The notes beneath the pieces were generated by a model. That model saw only the letters and a program-made list of their open reading frames with translations. It ran no database searches and was not told the DNA's origin. From positions 372,001-436,000 of the forward strand of contig NZ_SMBX01000002.1 in assembly GCF_004342005.1 (NCBI RefSeq): a DNA stretch of 64,000 bases, written 5' to 3'. The stretch's first letter is position 1. Every line of letters begins with the position of its first letter. Source of the stretch: Paracandidimonas soli. Lineage in GTDB: Bacteria; Pseudomonadota; Gammaproteobacteria; Burkholderiales; Burkholderiaceae_B. This document shows, piece after piece, positions 51,035-56,844 of the stretch. A program made the translations under genes and the position numbers.

Positions 51035-51088
51035 TAGACGAAGGCAGTGCCGGCGGCACGGGACAGGCAAGTCGATATACCCGTGTTA

Positions 51089-51107
51089 GCGACAATGGCA
51101 TTGTCGC
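51089..51107. promoter_or_regulatory. Perfect palindrome upstream of ubiU
   Basis: GCGACAAT-GGC-ATTGTCGC is a 19-nt sequence with 8-bp perfect arms, 78 nt before the ubiU start. The arms read opposite to an FNR box, so it is not a classical FNR site. It may be an unknown operator or a small hairpin. Confidence 0.45.
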
Positions 51108-51184
51108 CAGGTTTGCCGGCATCGAACTCCAGGACCAGGCGCAGCAGTCATTCGATTGTTGTCCTTGTTTCAGGAGTTCTGCCG

Positions 51185-52237
51185 ATGTTGCCTTCCAGCA
51201 GCGCATCCACGCATGCGCCCCCGCCCCAATCGTTCGCCAAACCCGAGCTGCTTTGTCCCGCGGGCAGTCTTCCCGGCCTGAAGGCCGCGATAGACAACGG
51301 GGCGGACAGCGTCTATCTGGGGTTTCGCGACGCTACCAATGCCCGCAATTTCGCGGGGCTCAATTTCGACGAAGCCGCGATCAACGAAGGTATCTGCTAT
51401 GCCCATGCGCGCGGCCGCAAGGTACTGCTGGCGCTCAATACCTACCCCCAGGGCAATGCATGGCAGCAATGGCACGCGGCAGTCGATCGCGCCGCGCGCG
51501 CCGACATTGACGCTATCCTGCTGGCGGATCCGGGGCTGATGCGCTATGCGCGCACGCATTATCCGCATCTCGAACTGCATCTGTCGGTGCAGGGATCGGC
51601 CACCAACTACGAGGCCATCAACTTCTATCAGGAGCATTTCGGCGTAACGCGCGCCGTATTGCCCCGTGTGCTTTCCATGGCCCAGGTGGAAATGGTCTGC
51701 GAGAAGACCGACATCGAAATCGAAGTGTTCGGTTTCGGCAGCCTGTGCGTAATGGTGGAAGGGCGCTGCGCACTATCGTCCTACGTGACTGGCGAGTCCC
51801 CCAATACCAAGGGTGTCTGCTCTCCGGCCAAATACGTGCGCTGGCAGCAGACGGGCAAGGGCCTGGAGTCGCGCCTGAACGGCGTCCTGATCGACCGCTA
51901 CGAAGAAGGAGAAAACGCGGGCTATCCCACATTATGCAAAGGCCGTTTCGACGTCGCGGATGAAAACTACTATGCGCTGGAAGAGCCTACCAGCCTGAAT
52001 ACGCTGGAATTGCTGCCCAGGCTGATGCAGCTTGGCATCAGCGCCGTCAAGATTGAAGGCAGGCAACGCAGTCCGGCCTACGCCGGACAGGTGGCCAGGG
52101 TATGGCGCGAGGCCATCGATCAGTGCGCGGCCAACATGGCCCGTTATTCCGTGAAGCCCGCCTGGATGGCGGAATTGAACAAGGTTGCCGAGGGGCAGCA
52201 GCACACACTCGGAGCGTATCACAGGCCATGGAAATGA
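51185..52237 (+). CDS. ubiU: Oxygen-independent ubiquinone hydroxylation protein UbiU (U32 peptidase family)
   Basis: A 350-residue U32-family protein. PELLCPAGSLPGLKAAIDNG opens the domain, and VYLGFRDATNARNFAGLNF and VQGSATNYEAINFY are UbiU/YhbU-typical. Candidate [4Fe-4S] ligands are the Cys residues in FGSLCVMVEGRCALS, GVCSPAKY and YPTLCKGRF. With UbiV it hydroxylates the quinone ring without oxygen. The start is ATG at 51185, after AGGAG. Its stop overlaps ubiV, so the two are coupled. Confidence 0.94.
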   Translation: MLPSSSASTHAPPPQSFAKPELLCPAGSLPGLKAAIDNGADSVYLGFRDATNARNFAGLNFDEAAINEGICYAHARGRKVLLALNTYPQGNAWQQWHAAVDRAARADIDAILLADPGLMRYARTHYPHLELHLSVQGSATNYEAINFYQEHFGVTRAVLPRVLSMAQVEMVCEKTDIEIEVFGFGSLCVMVEGRCALSSYVTGESPNTKGVCSPAKYVRWQQTGKGLESRLNGVLIDRYEEGENAGYPTLCKGRFDVADENYYALEEPTSLNTLELLPRLMQLGISAVKIEGRQRSPAYAGQVARVWREAIDQCAANMARYSVKPAWMAELNKVAEGQQHTLGAYHRPWK

Positions 52238-53130
52238 AGACACAACTGAAACTGGCCGTCGGGCCGCTGCAGTACTACTGGTCGCGCGTCGAGGTGCTGC
52301 AATTCTATGAAAGTCTGCGCGATTCCTGTGCCGACATCGTCTACCTGGGCGAAACCGTTTGTTCCCGAAGGCACGAGCTGCGTCTTGCCGATTGGCTGGA
52401 AGTTGCGGAAATGCTGGACGAAGCGGGCAAGAAAGTGATCCTGTCGACGCAGGTCCTGCTGGAATCCGGCCAGGACCTGACGACACTGCGCAAGATTGCC
52501 GAGAACACGCGCTATCAGGTCGAAGCCAACGATATGGGAGCCGTACGCCTGATGCAAGGCAGGCCGTTCATCGCGGGGCCTTTCCTGAACATCTACAATG
52601 CGCCTACGCGTGATTTGCTGGCTGGCCTCGGCGCCGTGCGCTGGGTCATGCCGCTGGAAATGGGCAGGGATACGCTGGGCCAGATCCAGTCCGAGGGCGA
52701 GCGGCGCATTCCGGCGGAGATTTTCTCCTACGGCAAGCTGCCGCTGGCGTTCTCTGCCCGCTGCTTCACGGCGCGCAATCGCAACATTCCCAAGGACAAC
52801 TGCCAGTATGTCTGCATGGATCATCCCGACGGGCTGCTCATGCGCACGAAAGAAGGGCAGCCGTTCCTGACCATCAACGGCATCCAGACGCAGTCGGCGC
52901 TGGTCTACACCTTGCTGGACCAATTGCATGCGTTCGGCGCCCTGGGCGCCGAGGTGGTGCGTATCAGCCCGCAGTCCAGGCATACGCTGGAGATCCTGTC
53001 CATCTTCCGCAAGGTGATGGATGGAACGCTGGGGCTCGCCGAAGCCAACGACCAGTTGTTGCCGCTGATGCCCGAGGGGCCCTGCAACGGGTACTGGTTC
53101 GGCCGGCCTGGCCTGGAAATGGCGGCCTGA
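52234..53130 (+). CDS. ubiV: Oxygen-independent ubiquinone hydroxylation protein UbiV (U32 peptidase family)
   Basis: A 298-residue partner of UbiU. It begins KLAVGPLQYYWSRVEVLQFY and contains DIVYLGETVCSRRHELR. The Cys set for its Fe-S cluster is in AFSARCFTARNRN and DNCQYVCMDHP plus the early Cys. The start at 52234 uses the ATGA overlap with ubiU and is 8 nt from an AGG; an ATG at 52228 is an alternative. The pair, followed by ubiT, fully matches the anaerobic ubiquinone set. A repeat copy follows the stop. Confidence 0.94.
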   Translation: MKTQLKLAVGPLQYYWSRVEVLQFYESLRDSCADIVYLGETVCSRRHELRLADWLEVAEMLDEAGKKVILSTQVLLESGQDLTTLRKIAENTRYQVEANDMGAVRLMQGRPFIAGPFLNIYNAPTRDLLAGLGAVRWVMPLEMGRDTLGQIQSEGERRIPAEIFSYGKLPLAFSARCFTARNRNIPKDNCQYVCMDHPDGLLMRTKEGQPFLTINGIQTQSALVYTLLDQLHAFGALGAEVVRISPQSRHTLEILSIFRKVMDGTLGLAEANDQLLPLMPEGPCNGYWFGRPGLEMAA

Positions 53131-53145
53131 AGCGTCCAGAGGCGT

Positions 53146-53234
53146 CCCGGCGGCAAAAAATGCCCCCACGCTGCGCCTTCGGCTTGCTGCCCCCGAAAGG
53201 GGGCCTTTTTGCTTAAGGCGGCCCGGCAGCAAAA
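53146..53234 (-). repeat. Intergenic repeat copy after ubiV
   Basis: In reverse orientation to the 10171 units: the minus strand reads TTTTGCTGCCGGGCCGCC, a CCCCC/GGGGG palindrome, AGCAAGCCGAAGGCGCAGCG, then TGGGGGCATTTTTT. Its position right after ubiV fits a terminator-like role. The rest of the 283-nt gap before ubiT holds only weak signals, including a poor FNR-like match at 53236. Confidence 0.8.
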
Positions 53235-53413
53235 CCTGATGCAGATCATGCCGGGACGAAATACGTTGCGGCCCGGCTTTGATTATTGAGGCAGATCATG
53301 GCGTGCGAATGTGAGCGAGGGCATCATGCGTGGCACGCCCACTTCGCCGCATCCCCGGATAGCGGTCCCGCGCGAAGGTGGAGCACATTCACCTTTCGAA
53401 GGAGCTTACGGCC

Positions 53414-53902
53414 ATGACGACACCAGGTTATCAGGTACCGGCCCCGGTACGACAAGCCTTTTCCGTTCTGCCTGCCTATCCCGGTTCGGTACTGTTCGTC
53501 CTGGGGCTGAACCTTGCCCTGGCAAGGCATCTGCAGCCAGACATCCTGCTATTGCTGGAGAACCGGACCTTGCGCATCCAGGTGCGCGATGCCGGAGTCG
53601 CATTCGATTTCATCTGGCGCAACCGGGCGTTCATCGCCGCGCGCCACGAGGGCGAAGTGGATCTGGCGATCTGTGCCAGCCTGCATGATTTTTTCCTGCT
53701 TGCCATGCGGAAGGAGGATCCCGATACGCTGTTCTTCAGCCGCAGGCTGGTGCTGGAAGGGGATACCGAGCTGGGTCTGCTGGTCAAGAACACACTGGAT
53801 GCCATCGACCTGTCGTCGCTGGTTCCGCAGCACCTGTTGCCCATGGCGCTGATGCAGCGCCTGCGCGCCAGGGGCCTGCCTCTGCCAGGAAGGCTGAGAT
53901 AG
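53414..53902 (+). CDS. ubiT: SCP2 sterol-binding domain protein UbiT (anaerobic ubiquinone synthesis)
   Basis: A 162-residue SCP2-domain protein: VPAPVRQAFSVLPAYPG leads in, RTLRIQVRDAGVAFDFIWR forms part of the fold, and RRLVLEGDTELGLLVKNTLD is the UbiT/YhbT signature. UbiT is the lipid-binding accessory protein of the anaerobic pathway, replacing UbiJ. The ATG at 53414 follows AAGGAG; a GTG at 53378 is less likely. It is 283 nt after ubiV with a repeat between, so it may have its own promoter. Confidence 0.9.
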   Translation: MTTPGYQVPAPVRQAFSVLPAYPGSVLFVLGLNLALARHLQPDILLLLENRTLRIQVRDAGVAFDFIWRNRAFIAARHEGEVDLAICASLHDFFLLAMRKEDPDTLFFSRRLVLEGDTELGLLVKNTLDAIDLSSLVPQHLLPMALMQRLRARGLPLPGRLR

Positions 53903-53981: not shown

Positions 53982-54695
53982 TCAGCCTTCCCGAAACGTA
54001 AAGCGGGGAAACAGGCCGCGCACGGTATCGATCAGGGACTTGCCGGGGTAGTCGTGCATCGGTGCGCGCAGCAACCCGCTGTCGCTGCAGCCCTGCTTGC
54101 GGAACAATTGCAACGCGTAGTTCTCCACTTCCATATCGGCCAGCGATCTGGCGAGGCGCAGGATATCGTCCGGCGCAAGCAGCGAGGGATGCAGCGTGGT
54201 GCGGCATTCGAGGTCCGTGCCGTGCGACAGTATCATTTCGAGACTGCGCAGGGCAGGCTGGCTGCTGCCGCTGACCTGTGTGACGGTATCGTAGACGTCG
54301 AAGGGGGCCTTGATGTCCAGTCCCACCCAATCGACGAGCGGGAGCACATCGGCCAGGCGGTCGGGGTAGATGCCGCCGGTATGCAGGCCGATGCGGAACC
54401 CCAGGCCGCGCACGTCGTCCATGGCGCTGCGCAGTCCGGGGTCTATGGTCGGCTCTCCGCCGCTGAAGACGACGGCATCGATCAGGCCGCGCCTGCGCTG
54501 CAGCAGGTCCATGATGTCATGCCAGGCGATGGCATGGTCTGTGCCGCGCGGTTGCAGGTGCGGGTTGTGGCAATAGCCGCAACGCCAGGGACAGCCCTGG
54601 ACGAACAGGACTGCGGAAAACACACCCGGATAGTCGGTGGCGCTGAAAGGCGCCAGCCCACCGATCCGGATCGCACGGCAGGCTTCTTCGGTCAT
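53982..54695 (-). CDS. nrdG: Anaerobic ribonucleotide reductase activating enzyme (radical SAM)
   Basis: A 237-residue radical SAM protein. The cluster motif is in VQGCPWRCGYCHNPHLQPRG (CxxxCxxC, about residues 32-39), preceded by FSATDYPGVFSAVLF. VVFSGGEPTIDP and GLDIKAPFDVY are conserved. It generates the glycyl radical on the class III reductase. The ATG at 54695 overlaps the stop of the small glycyl-radical ORF (ATGA), supporting one operon and a shared function. A pyruvate-formate-lyase activator is the alternative, less likely in this context. Confidence 0.92.
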   Translation of the reverse strand: MTEEACRAIRIGGLAPFSATDYPGVFSAVLFVQGCPWRCGYCHNPHLQPRGTDHAIAWHDIMDLLQRRRGLIDAVVFSGGEPTIDPGLRSAMDDVRGLGFRIGLHTGGIYPDRLADVLPLVDWVGLDIKAPFDVYDTVTQVSGSSQPALRSLEMILSHGTDLECRTTLHPSLLAPDDILRLARSLADMEVENYALQLFRKQGCSDSGLLRAPMHDYPGKSLIDTVRGLFPRFTFREG

Positions 54696-54889
54696 GCGGC
54701 TTTGGACAGCGCTTTGGCGCGCCCTTCGACGAAGTACTTGCGTTCGTGGAACTCGCCTTTCTTGCCGATATTGAACGACGACATGGGGCGATGGTATCCC
54801 ATGACGCGCGTCCAGATTTCGCAAGGCTGGCGCTCGTCGTCGCGCAGTGTGATGGTGTCGGTCGATTGCATGGCTTGTGTCTGGATCAT
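54692..54889 (-). CDS. Separate glycyl-radical domain of anaerobic ribonucleotide reductase
   Basis: A 65-residue ORF reading CEIWTRVMGYHRPMSSFNIG in its middle. This is the C-terminal radical loop of NrdD enzymes of the Thermotoga/Pyrococcus-like type (usual form S/T-R-V-x-G-Y-x-R-P-V), with the radical Gly in RVMGY, followed by GKKGEFHERKYF. In most class III reductases it is fused to the large chain; here the large chain ends before it. It has its own ATG with GAGG six bases upstream and is in a different frame, and it overlaps nrdG. It probably acts as a detachable radical subunit, analogous to YfiD for PFL. Confidence 0.85.
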   Translation of the reverse strand: MIQTQAMQSTDTITLRDDERQPCEIWTRVMGYHRPMSSFNIGKKGEFHERKYFVEGRAKALSKAA

Positions 54890-54929
54890 GATAGGCCTCG
54901 TATGGTTGGTTGGGTGGGGGATGCGATGT

Positions 54930-56738
54930 TCAGGCGACCGCCTGCTGCCTTTTTTGCGCCAGCAGTTCCTCGTCGCACTTGGGGCAGAAGGGATGCTTGC
55001 CGGCCAGGTAGCCGTGCTTGGGGCAGATGGAAAAGGTCGGCGTGACGGTAATGTAGGGCAGCGAAAAGCGGCTCAGCGCGCGCTTGACCAGATTGCGGCA
55101 GGCATCGGCGCTGGAGATGGGCTCCGTCATGTACAGGTGCAGTACCGTTCCACCGGTGTACTTGCGCTGCAGCTCGTCCTGGCGTTCTAGCGCCTCGAAC
55201 GGATCGTCGGTGAAGCCCACGGGCAATTGCGACGAGTTCGTGTAGTAGGGCATGTCCTCGGTGCCCGCCTGCAGGATATCGGGGAAGCGCTTGCGGTCTT
55301 CCTTGGCGAAGCGGTAGGTCGTGCCTTCGGCTGGCGTGGCCTCGAGGTTGTACATGTGGCCGGTTTCTTCCTGGAATTGCACCATGCGCATGCGCACGTG
55401 ATCCAGCAGGCGCACGGCCAGCGCATAGCCTTCGGCGGTTGTGATATCGTGCCGGTCGCGCGTGAAGTTGCGGATCATTTCGTTGATACCGTTGACGCCC
55501 AGTGTGGAGAAATGATTGCGCAAGGTGCCCAGGTAGCGCTTGGTATAGGGGAACAGCCCGTTGTCCATGTATTCCTGGATGACGGTGCGCTTGATTTCCA
55601 GGCTGCGTTTGCCCAGTTCGAGCAGCTCGTCCAGACGCCGCAGCAGGGCGGGCTCGTCTCCCGCATGCAGGTAGCCCAGGCGCGCGCAGTTGATGGTGAC
55701 TACGCCCAGCGATCCGGTCTGCTCGGCGGAGCCGAACAGACCGTTGCCGCGCTTGAGCAGTTCGCGCAGGTCCAGTTGCAGGCGGCAGCACATCGAGCGG
55801 ATCATGTTGGGGGACAGCTCGGAGTTGATGAAGTTCTGGAAATACGGCAGGCCGTAGCGGGCCGTCATTTCGAACAGCAGATCGGCATTCGGGCTGTGCC
55901 AGTCGAAATCCGCCGTGATGTTGTAGGTGGGAATGGGAAAGGTGAAGACCCGGCCCTTGGCGTCGCCCGCCGTCATGATCTCGATGTAGGCGCGATTGAT
56001 CATGTCCATTTCGGACTGGAGCTCGCCATAGGTGAAAGGCATCTCCTCGCCGCCGATGACGGGAACCTGCTCGCGCAGATCTTCCGGGCAGACCCAGTCG
56101 AATGTGAGGTTGGTGAATGGCGTCTGCGTGCCCCAGCGCGAAGGAACGTTGAGGTTGTAGATCAGCTCCTGCATGTACTGCTTGACCTCTTCGTAGCGCA
56201 GATCGTCCTTGCGGATGAAGGGCGCCATGTAGGTGTCGAAGGAGCTGAACGCCTGGGCGCCGGCCCATTCGTTCTGCAGCGTGCCCAGGAAGTTGACGAT
56301 CTGGCCGATCGCGCTGGACATATGCCTGGGCGCGATGGATTCCACCTTGCCGGGAACGCCGTTCAGGCCTTCGTTGAGCAGGGTGCGCAGGGACCATCCG
56401 GCGCAATAGCCCGAAAGCATGTCGAGGTCGTGGATGTGCAGATCGGCTTCGCGGTGGGCGTTGCCGATTTCCGCCGGATAGACATGGCTGAGCCAGTAAT
56501 TGGCGATGACCTTGCCGGAGACGTTCAGGATAAGCCCGCCCAGGGAATAGCCCTGGTTGGCGTTGGCGTTGACCCGCCAATCCTGCTGCGCCAGGTATTC
56601 GTTGACGGACGTTGCGACGTCGATGAGGGGCGGGGATTCGTGCCCGGCGGGTTTGCCGGCATGAGATGCGCCTTGCCCGGACGGCGCGCTGGTTTGTCGA
56701 TTGCGATGCTGAGACAGCGAAATGGCATCTGGCGCCAT
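54930..56738 (-). CDS. nrdD: Class III anaerobic ribonucleoside-triphosphate reductase, catalytic part
   Basis: A 602-residue NrdD. The 10-strand barrel core is recognisable from HDLDMLSGYCAGWSLRTLL, through QTPFTNLTFDWVCPEDL, SPNMIRSMCCRLQLDL and VTINCARLGYLHAGD. The chain ends shortly after the zinc-site motif CPKHGYLAGKHPFCPKCDEE with AQKRQQAVA; the glycyl-radical loop that normally follows is absent. It is encoded 40 nt downstream in another frame. The N-terminal ATP-cone seems missing or very short. The ATG at 56738 has a strong GGAGG. It makes dNTPs without oxygen. Confidence 0.93.
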   Translation of the reverse strand: MAPDAISLSQHRNRQTSAPSGQGASHAGKPAGHESPPLIDVATSVNEYLAQQDWRVNANANQGYSLGGLILNVSGKVIANYWLSHVYPAEIGNAHREADLHIHDLDMLSGYCAGWSLRTLLNEGLNGVPGKVESIAPRHMSSAIGQIVNFLGTLQNEWAGAQAFSSFDTYMAPFIRKDDLRYEEVKQYMQELIYNLNVPSRWGTQTPFTNLTFDWVCPEDLREQVPVIGGEEMPFTYGELQSEMDMINRAYIEIMTAGDAKGRVFTFPIPTYNITADFDWHSPNADLLFEMTARYGLPYFQNFINSELSPNMIRSMCCRLQLDLRELLKRGNGLFGSAEQTGSLGVVTINCARLGYLHAGDEPALLRRLDELLELGKRSLEIKRTVIQEYMDNGLFPYTKRYLGTLRNHFSTLGVNGINEMIRNFTRDRHDITTAEGYALAVRLLDHVRMRMVQFQEETGHMYNLEATPAEGTTYRFAKEDRKRFPDILQAGTEDMPYYTNSSQLPVGFTDDPFEALERQDELQRKYTGGTVLHLYMTEPISSADACRNLVKRALSRFSLPYITVTPTFSICPKHGYLAGKHPFCPKCDEELLAQKRQQAVA

Positions 56739-56750
56739 GAGACCTCCGAT

Positions 56751-56766
56751 TCACTATATATAGTGT
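56751..56766 (-). promoter_or_regulatory. NrdR box 1 upstream of nrdD
   Basis: ACACTATATATAGTGA on the minus strand fits the NrdR consensus acaCwATATATwGtgt at 15 of 16 positions. It begins next to the predicted +1 of the nrdD promoter. Confidence 0.85.
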
Positions 56767-56773
56767 TTCATGT

Positions 56774-56802
56774 ATATTATTTTCAATATATAGTGTGGTC
56801 AA
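56774..56802 (-). promoter_or_regulatory. Sigma70-type promoter of nrdD
   Basis: TTGACC (56802-56797) and TAATAT (56779-56774) are separated by exactly 17 bp on the minus strand. The predicted start is near 56767, giving a leader of about 29 nt before the GGAGG-ATG. Confidence 0.75.
56781..56796 (-). promoter_or_regulatory. NrdR box 2 within the nrdD promoter spacer
   Basis: ACACTATATATTGAAA matches the NrdR box pattern and lies exactly between the -35 and -10. Its centre is 30 bp from that of box 1, the usual spacing for paired NrdR boxes. Confidence 0.85.
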
Positions 56803-56830: not shown

Positions 56831-56844
56831 TTGATCCAGATTAA
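56831..56844 (-). promoter_or_regulatory. FNR/Anr-like box upstream of nrdD
   Basis: The plus strand reads TTGATCCAGATTAA, one mismatch from TTGAT-N4-ATCAA. Its centre is about 70.5 nt upstream of the predicted nrdD start, a class I FNR position. The same TTGAT-N4-ATTAA variant occurs at 49682. Confidence 0.65.

Follow-up and report, generated by a model that had tools for sequence, protein, structure and literature searches.

The window, the whole 64,000-nucleotide stretch of Paracandidimonas soli DNA analyzed here (contig NZ_SMBX01000002.1), very likely encodes a class III (anaerobic) ribonucleotide reductase (RNR) made of two subunits, in which a small chain is the radical subunit, is inherited as a gene of its own and is also used by phages. 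Class III RNR is generally treated as a single chain with its own radical. In the window, nrdD, the small ORF and nrdG all lie on the minus strand (Table 1). Translation confirms the preliminary description, which had NrdD (602 aa) stopping right after its zinc motif without a radical loop, and the loop carried by a 65-aa ORF 40 nt downstream, in a different reading frame, with its own GAGG-ATG and a stop within which the start of nrdG sits (ATGA). NrdD harbors the barrel and a complete zinc hairpin (C-x2-H...C-x2-C) and terminates with CPKHGYLAGKHPFCPKCDEELLAQKRQQAVA and a stop, 14 residues beyond CPKC, while the small product begins with MIQTQ and contains DERQPCEIWTRVMGYHRPMSSFNIGKKGEFHERKYF.

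Table 1. Features of the class III RNR locus and its upstream region in the window
Feature	Positions	Strand	Basis
nrdD, catalytic chain of class III ribonucleotide reductase, 602 aa	54930..56738	-	NRDD and PRK08270
Small glycyl-radical subunit (putative), 65 aa, RVMGYHRP loop and GKKGEF	54692..54889	-	Pfam NRDD 530-562
GAGG, ribosome-binding-like motif, ATG of the small ORF 6 nt further on	54896..54899	-	sequence
nrdG, radical-SAM activase, 237 aa, ATGA overlap with the small ORF	53982..54695	-	TIGR02495
NrdR-box-like palindrome upstream of nrdD	56751..56766	.	1 mismatch to pattern used
Second, degenerate NrdR-box-like site	56781..56796	-	3 mismatches
FNR/ANR-like site TTGATCCAGATTAA	56831..56844	+	1 mismatch to pattern used

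The two chains together tile the Pfam NRDD profile (PF13597, length 562): NrdD matches positions 2-529 (579.8 bits, gathering cut-off 26.2), and the small ORF positions 530-562, exceeding the gathering score by itself (30.3 vs 26.2 bits). NrdD also matches NCBIfam PRK08270 (1056 bits), and the nrdG product matches TIGR02495 (NrdG2) with 195 bits against a cut-off of 131. No ATP-cone match was found in NrdD by profile search; its best-matching families are anaerobic class III reductases, not class II (cobalamin) enzymes. The closest solved structures by sequence are of the Thermotoga maritima type (4coi/4u3e, E about 1e-32). A structure search (pdb_via) with the predicted NrdD model, itself mediocre (pLDDT 62, pTM 0.59), returned class III RNR chains (Z 13-17, rmsd 6.5-8, about 380-460 residues aligned), followed by other glycyl radical enzymes (9-11). 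NrdD is thus predicted to have the RNR barrel fold, the confidence of the model being moderate. The small chain alone, predicted without an alignment, gave a pLDDT of 56 and a pTM of 0.27.

The split is conserved among relatives. A scan of GTDB genome contigs, covering Pseudomonadota, identified at least 535 encoded relatives of the small ORF, the best 80 of which were read in detail together with the window (81 loci, including near-duplicates such as L037/L039 and L024/L026). NrdD ends ahead of the loop in 80 of these 81 loci and lies elsewhere in the remaining one. According to a script, NrdD and NrdG flank the small ORF in the order NrdD-small-NrdG in 78 of the 80 relatives; L060 shares this order, its NrdD being matched as three BLAST pieces, and in L055 NrdD is not nearby. 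Another genome (G811) contains the NrdD-small pair, and the 5 kb read there include no nrdG. A script choosing the best start detected an ATG preceded by a purine-rich motif of 3-6 nt in 79 of 80 split loci. The break is accompanied by conserved residues gained on either side. An Asp directly follows CPxC in all 80 close and all 56 survey split loci (Gly, Glu or Ser in four fusions), and an L-x-D-x-E-R motif of the small chain is clear in 78/80 close and 41/56 survey loci. Twenty-two columns are invariant in an alignment of 42 small chains, the window's included. Comparison of the small ORF with 80 relatives gave a median pN of 0.11 and a median pS of 0.63 (the medians give a ratio of 0.18; synonymous sites are close to saturated), indicating purifying selection at the sequence level; NrdD is also under purifying selection with respect to its relatives. 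The split concerns Cupriavidus necator H16 as well, where the small ORF is 66 aa long and whose nrdDG genes are reported to be essential for complete denitrification.

The Cys of the small chain (PCEIW) is invariant in 80/80 close bacterial copies, and the preliminary description had proposed that it completes the zinc site. This is unlikely, and the Cys was rejected as a needed ligand: the hairpin is already complete in NrdD, the fused L276 and L277 carry the same hairpin with a Thr at this position, and Val or Thr replaces it in 5 of 80 viral copies.

Small chains also occur on their own in prophage-like regions, on virus contigs and on one plasmid; plasmid tables that list the small ORF name it nrdD or hypothetical protein. 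Three bacteria with a split NrdD harbor extra lone copies, two of them in prophage-like regions; G267 is one genome with a prophage copy. A viral collection contained 147 relatives, and the 80 examined, whose core regions comprise 65 different DNA sequences, are all stand-alone, with no NrdD barrel above cut-off in their records, which may be fragments. Four of the 80 frames (L201, L253, L254 and L257) do not have the usual start upstream of the motif. The median pN/pS of 0.38, obtained from the 197 of 2080 pairs with a pS of 0.1-0.65, indicates that these viral copies are under purifying selection. The virus ANMV-1 has been said to encode an oxygen-sensitive RNR, and only the radical domain is present in its record. 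MT835493, at first taken for another virus with just the loop, was discarded, as its record contains a full fused NrdD.

Since it is a separate gene, the radical part can move independently. Lone copies would most likely supply or replace the radical subunit of a host enzyme and so sustain dNTP flow in anoxia. Chances appear about even that the radical centre is a tradeable module, through which viruses and prophages with a subunit of roughly 50-70 aa arm, re-arm or take over a host catalytic chain during anaerobic infection. To our knowledge, a viral radical subunit would, if true, be the first example of a nucleotide reductase "spare part" encoded by a phage. The viral copies could instead be decoys that sequester NrdG or NrdD and so shut down dNTP synthesis in the host, since an isolated radical domain could be a competitor for the activase or the docking site, and the missing barrel in the viral records would fit such a role. 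This seems unlikely, however, as viruses usually need dNTPs and the radical glycine motif is kept in 80/80 viral copies, an outcome that the search patterns and the motif definition favour.

In the window's genome, the only NRDD matches are NrdD and the small ORF, which is also the single loop match; the NRDD search revealed no other RNR glycyl domain and no second NrdD elsewhere. Since NrdD itself lacks a glycine loop, the main carrier of the radical in this host has to be the small chain. This makes it quite improbable that the small protein is a mere spare part for an oxygen-damaged enzyme rather than an obligate subunit, even though lone and viral copies exist and YfiD and the T4 protein Y06I offer precedents (PMC8683613); the argument does not bear on viral copies in hosts with a fused NrdD. 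The parallel with YfiD drawn in the preliminary description is apt in terms of function and does not extend to the spare-part role here, nor to the family, as a Pfam scan up to E = 1 matched the small ORF to NRDD only and not to the YfiD-type Gly_radical family.

Three genomes, each with one NrdD and one loop, show that the halves do not depend on linkage. In G799, an ORF coding for a 622-aa B12-binding radical-SAM protein lies between the two halves; in G661, 9.5 kb separates nrdD from the small ORF, and their order is reversed; and in G791, by coordinates the same genome as L055 (G879), the two are on different contigs. Such separation implies that the small chain acts in trans. Co- or post-translational joining of the halves into one chain (by programmed frameshift, hop or trans-splicing) would agree with their adjacency in all but one of the 80 closest loci, but is even less probable than a spare-part role given these arrangements, a frame offset that is not constant (0, 1 and 2 in 21, 34 and 25 loci), the overlap of 10/80 NrdD-small pairs at the script-chosen start, and NrdD tails of only 11-49 aa past the hairpin, which leave scant space for an intein half. 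As all three offsets occur with varied spacing, there is no shared frameshift, in agreement with the earlier remark that a single one could not explain the locus. Least credible of all, and refuted by the relatives, is one gene broken by sequencing error or decay: the window's halves do lie in different frames with a stop between them, but the shared break with its varied frames and spacing, the selection on both genes, the residues gained at the break and the unlinked halves strongly support the initial view of a real two-part enzyme.

Fused homologs whose large chain contains the radical Gly, named in the preliminary description as evidence that would tell against the split, do exist: L171, L172, L276 and L277 are contiguous natural fusions with 81, 80, 74 and 58% identity to the window's NrdD. 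They belong to other branches, however, and the split in the window's clade stands. Two long open frames, G156 (773 aa) and G259 (658 aa), were rejected as fusions, since in both of them NrdD occupies a different frame and ends at a stop of its own; they are split. In trees of 61 and 48 rows, which include 33 and 20 hand-picked members of L001-L080, respectively, fused relatives are interspersed among split ones, with four fused/split changes needed in the former and three in the latter. The starred branches force only one change, and 0/200 bootstrap trees of the 48-row set give one. The base of the trees is unsure owing to long branches (L277 and L279, joined by L290 in the 61-row tree). Rows shorter than 480 residues were excluded, along with four rows of distant fused relatives, and L290 was also omitted from the 48-row tree; the distant fused NrdDs L280, L281, L283 and L285 are in neither tree.

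Putative regulatory sites precede nrdD (Table 1). The NrdR-box pattern with one mismatch has three matches in the window, corresponding to two sites as the palindrome is counted on both strands, against 0.16 expected. FNR/ANR-like sites are a weak signal (three in the window vs about one expected).

In the two-subunit enzyme, NrdD would provide the barrel, the active-site cysteines and the zinc hairpin, and the 65-aa chain the glycine, Gly31, on which NrdG would install the radical. The small chain would dock with its loop within the barrel, adjoining the hairpin, and the joining would be non-covalent, probably via short conserved extensions formed at the break. Candidates are the acidic start of the NrdD tail after CPxC and the L-x-D-x-E-R ahead of the loop. 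A conserved two-chain version parts radical storage from catalysis and permits tests barred to a single chain, such as forming the radical on an isolated 7-kDa protein, exchanging oxygen-damaged radical subunits or swapping subunits across species; the viral copies make the spare-part idea directly testable for an enzyme needed in DNA synthesis. Annotation is affected too, with small ORFs listed as nrdD or hypothetical protein and an RNR claimed for ANMV-1 where only the radical domain occurs. No description of this NrdD split or of viral stand-alone copies was found in the titles, abstract openings and passages covered by our literature search. The NrdD described by Siedow in 1999 is said to be 76.2 kDa, fitting a 676-aa chain alone.

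Among known systems, the T. maritima NrdD shares the fold (by the predicted model), a zinc hairpin ahead of the radical loop and an NrdG partner, but its radical glycine, Gly621 according to PMC4493059, is on the same chain, whereas in the window it resides on a protein of its own, 65 aa long. Like the small ORF, YfiD/GrcA (E. coli) and Y06I (phage T4) are small detached radical domains, possibly phage-encoded and in need of an activase (PMC8683613). They are repair parts for pyruvate formate-lyase, whereas the small ORF matches NRDD, not Gly_radical, and would serve a loopless large chain. Spare parts were considered possible for other glycyl radical enzymes by Andorfer et al. 2021 (PMC8683613), with only two validated, both for pyruvate formate-lyase. 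The class II RNR NrdJa/NrdJb is likewise split, with catalysis on one chain and a C-terminal part on another (PMC9669993), but it is cobalamin-dependent and its second chain comprises zinc-finger and IscU-like domains without a radical glycine. Finally, phage nrdD genes occur in pieces through introns, inteins or unknown events (PMC3653736 and PMC12363816); these are mobile-element insertions or isolated fragmentations, in contrast to the conserved relocation of the radical domain onto a separate gene described here.

In the window, the class III ribonucleotide reductase is encoded as two chains, each carrying part of the NRDD family of Pfam (positions 2-529 on the large chain, NrdD, and 530-562 on the small chain, each above the gathering score); these are the only two NRDD matches in the whole genome. 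The arrangement given in the preliminary description, with NrdD ending after its zinc motif and the radical loop on a separate ORF with its own GAGG-ATG and an overlap with nrdG, was confirmed in the sequence: GAGG lies six bases before the ATG, and the start of nrdG overlaps the stop of the small ORF as ATGA. The activase is of the NrdG2 type. The predicted model of NrdD, of moderate confidence (pLDDT 62), resembles class III reductase chains (Z 13-17) more than other glycyl radical enzymes (Z 9-11). An ATP-cone match is absent from this NrdD, whereas it is present in the NrdD of another locus (L164) and of C. necator H16; many other relatives are likewise short, about 566-616 aa as judged from frame length only, and overall dATP control of the window enzyme may have been lost.

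Coordinates of the features discussed, in the window and in other records
Feature	Record	Position	Strand	Description
nrdD	window	56738-54930	minus	602 aa; last residue 14 past CPKC
small ORF	window	54889-54692	minus	65 aa; starts 40 nt after nrdD
ubiU, ubiV, ubiT	window	51047-53902		oxygen-independent ubiquinone synthesis genes; adjoining nrdD-small ORF-nrdG and convergent with them
two NrdR-box-like sites	window	56751-56796		upstream of nrdD; pattern presumed
FNR-like site	window	56831-56844		one site upstream of nrdD; pattern presumed
RNR large chain (phrog_84) and lone class III radical subunit	G267, L165	8215-11073		prophage-like region
lone small subunit	A. vinosum plasmid pALVIN01, L087	4001-4222
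RNR island	Azospira pAZI09, L089	1-6046		class I alpha, split class III NrdD, small subunit, NrdG, class I beta
lone radical domain	archaeal virus ANMV-1, L294	2686-3120		144 aa; own CxxC pairs and radical loop

The 65-aa protein, scanned against GTDB genome contigs, gave at least 535 encoded relatives, of which the best 80 were kept; by record title these belong to Pseudomonadota, betaproteobacteria for the most part with some alphaproteobacteria. Among these 80 loci and the window, the NrdD frame stops before the loop in 80 of 81, the exception (L055) having no NrdD hairpin near the small ORF. The order NrdD-small ORF-NrdG was found by tblastn and a simple rule in 78 of the 80; L060 has the same order with NrdD in three tblastn pieces, and in L047 nrdG lies 3.8 kb away. 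The small ORF is in frame offset 0, 1 or 2 relative to NrdD at 21, 34 and 25 loci, and its best-scored start follows the NrdD stop by a median of 34.5 nt (range -274 to 376; ten overlap). A broader survey, which took an alignment of 42 small radical domains (A1) as search profile at E 0.001, drew 150 genomes from the order, 369 from the class and 398 from the phylum, with overlap between the draws, and gave matches in 40, 36 and 18 of them, respectively; most genomes in each draw had no match. The 42 matches within the order (that of the window counted) comprise 39 in frames of 63-355 aa, two fused cases (G854 and G815) and one distant fused NrdD (G871). Reading 70 survey loci (L092-L161) by motif gave 56 split and four fused cases, five without an NrdD hairpin within reach upstream and five without the motif. 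A widespread two-subunit class III reductase is well supported.

The claim that a single frameshift would not explain the split is upheld by loci where the halves are apart (INDEPENDENCE). A 622-aa ORF with radical-SAM and B12-binding Pfam matches lies on the same strand between them in G799; in G661 nrdD is 9.5 kb from the small ORF and nrdG, which precede it in reading order, and the intervening genes include a Crp-family regulator and a HemN-like protein. The two halves in G791 are on different contigs, nrdD on C144 and the small ORF on C41, 3.7 kb from the end of the latter; the 5.8 kb read upstream of the small ORF contains no NrdD. G791 and G879, the home of L055, are one genome, with identical match coordinates. 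In all three genomes, G661, G791 and G799, NrdD and the loop each occur once, and a frameshift or hop is excluded there.

Purifying selection acts on the small ORF (median pN 0.11 and pS 0.63 against 80 relatives), and NrdD has a median pN of 0.085 and pS of 0.52 over 66 relatives aligning without gaps at >75%, synonymous sites being near saturation. In fused relatives (L171, L172, L276-L279, L282), C-x(1,2)-C is followed by 3-9 residues, then by [C/T]-[E/K]-[I/V]-[W/Y] and the loop. At split loci, the NrdD tail after the hairpin has a median of 15 residues in the closest loci and 16 in the survey, beginning with Asp in 80/80 and 56/56, respectively; before the motif the small chain runs for a median of 23 residues (19.5 in the survey), and L-x-[D/N/E]-x-E-R stands ahead of the loop in 78/80 and 41/56, both depending on the start chosen by the script. 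These extensions at the break probably dock the two chains. The suggestion that a Cys of the small chain could complete the zinc site is not supported: the hairpin is complete within the large chain, and this Cys, constant in 80/80 bacterial copies, is Val or Thr in five of 80 viral ones.

Radical subunits also occur alone. In three genomes (G267, G811 and G837) a lone copy exists besides the single NrdD and its own small ORF; the NrdD match of G837 reads through a TAG into the adjacent small ORF, and the region read around the G811 pair has no nrdG. In G837 the lone copy has an endolysin on one side and an Rz-like spanin on the other; genes near that of G267 include RecT, a RecE-like exonuclease and a ribonucleotide reductase. 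The lone copy is identical to the host copy at 49/50 residues and 141/150 bases in G267, and at 37/50 residues in G811. Plasmid pALVIN01 carries a lone subunit; NrdD is absent from the entire plasmid, and tblastn over the 8 kb read showed no NrdG. Another plasmid, pAZI09, bears a split system within a reductase island.

The A1 search of a viral collection gave 147 relatives, of which 80 were kept; these records may be fragments. NrdD and NrdG were absent by tblastn from the fetched DNA at all 80 loci, and in every one of the 80 records the NRDD matches that pass the cut-off span no more than 29-34 positions at the end of the profile; two have a sub-threshold second piece, that of G922 at 486-538. 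The frames range from 29 to 228 aa, four without a usual start ahead of the motif. Of ten hand-picked likely phage genes beside six copies, eight matched phage families (integrase twice, endolysin, baseplate, structural protein, tail tape measure, tail fibre and thymidylate synthase) and two matched none; the other 74 loci are viral by the classing of IMG/VR itself. The 80 copies comprise 65 distinct core sequences and are under purifying selection (median pN/pS 0.38 over 197 of 2080 pairs, those with pS 0.1-0.65), and viruses likely use the radical subunit. Their loci have a GC content of 26-70% (41/80 below 45%), wider and lower than the 47-70% of the 80 bacterial loci, so that viral hosts likely reach beyond the surveyed bacteria. 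Among 50,697 phage records, three tblastn queries matched only MT835493, rejected as a lone-loop virus because a full NrdD is present, and ANMV-1, whose record has no NrdD barrel match and whose domain is described in its paper as an oxygen-sensitive ribonucleotide reductase (PMC4372165). By eye, 29 viral NrdD loci comprised 20 fused, seven with a split-type CPxCD end, three of these with a loop ORF nearby, and two called neither. Positions 117-153 of phrog_4132, a viral PHROG family without assigned function, match the small subunit.

Split and fused forms show clustering in the best trees without making up one clade; the history may have been one ancient split with subsequent fusions, or several splits. 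The two-chain split was not found described in the literature searched, where the accessible parts of RNR papers mention only split NrdJ or phage cases. An RNR phylogeny in eLife left out sequences of <400 residues (PMC9531940), which may be one reason why the split was missed. The split nrdDG of C. necator H16 is reported to be essential for complete denitrification; this concerns nrdDG as a whole and indicates that a split locus works in vivo.
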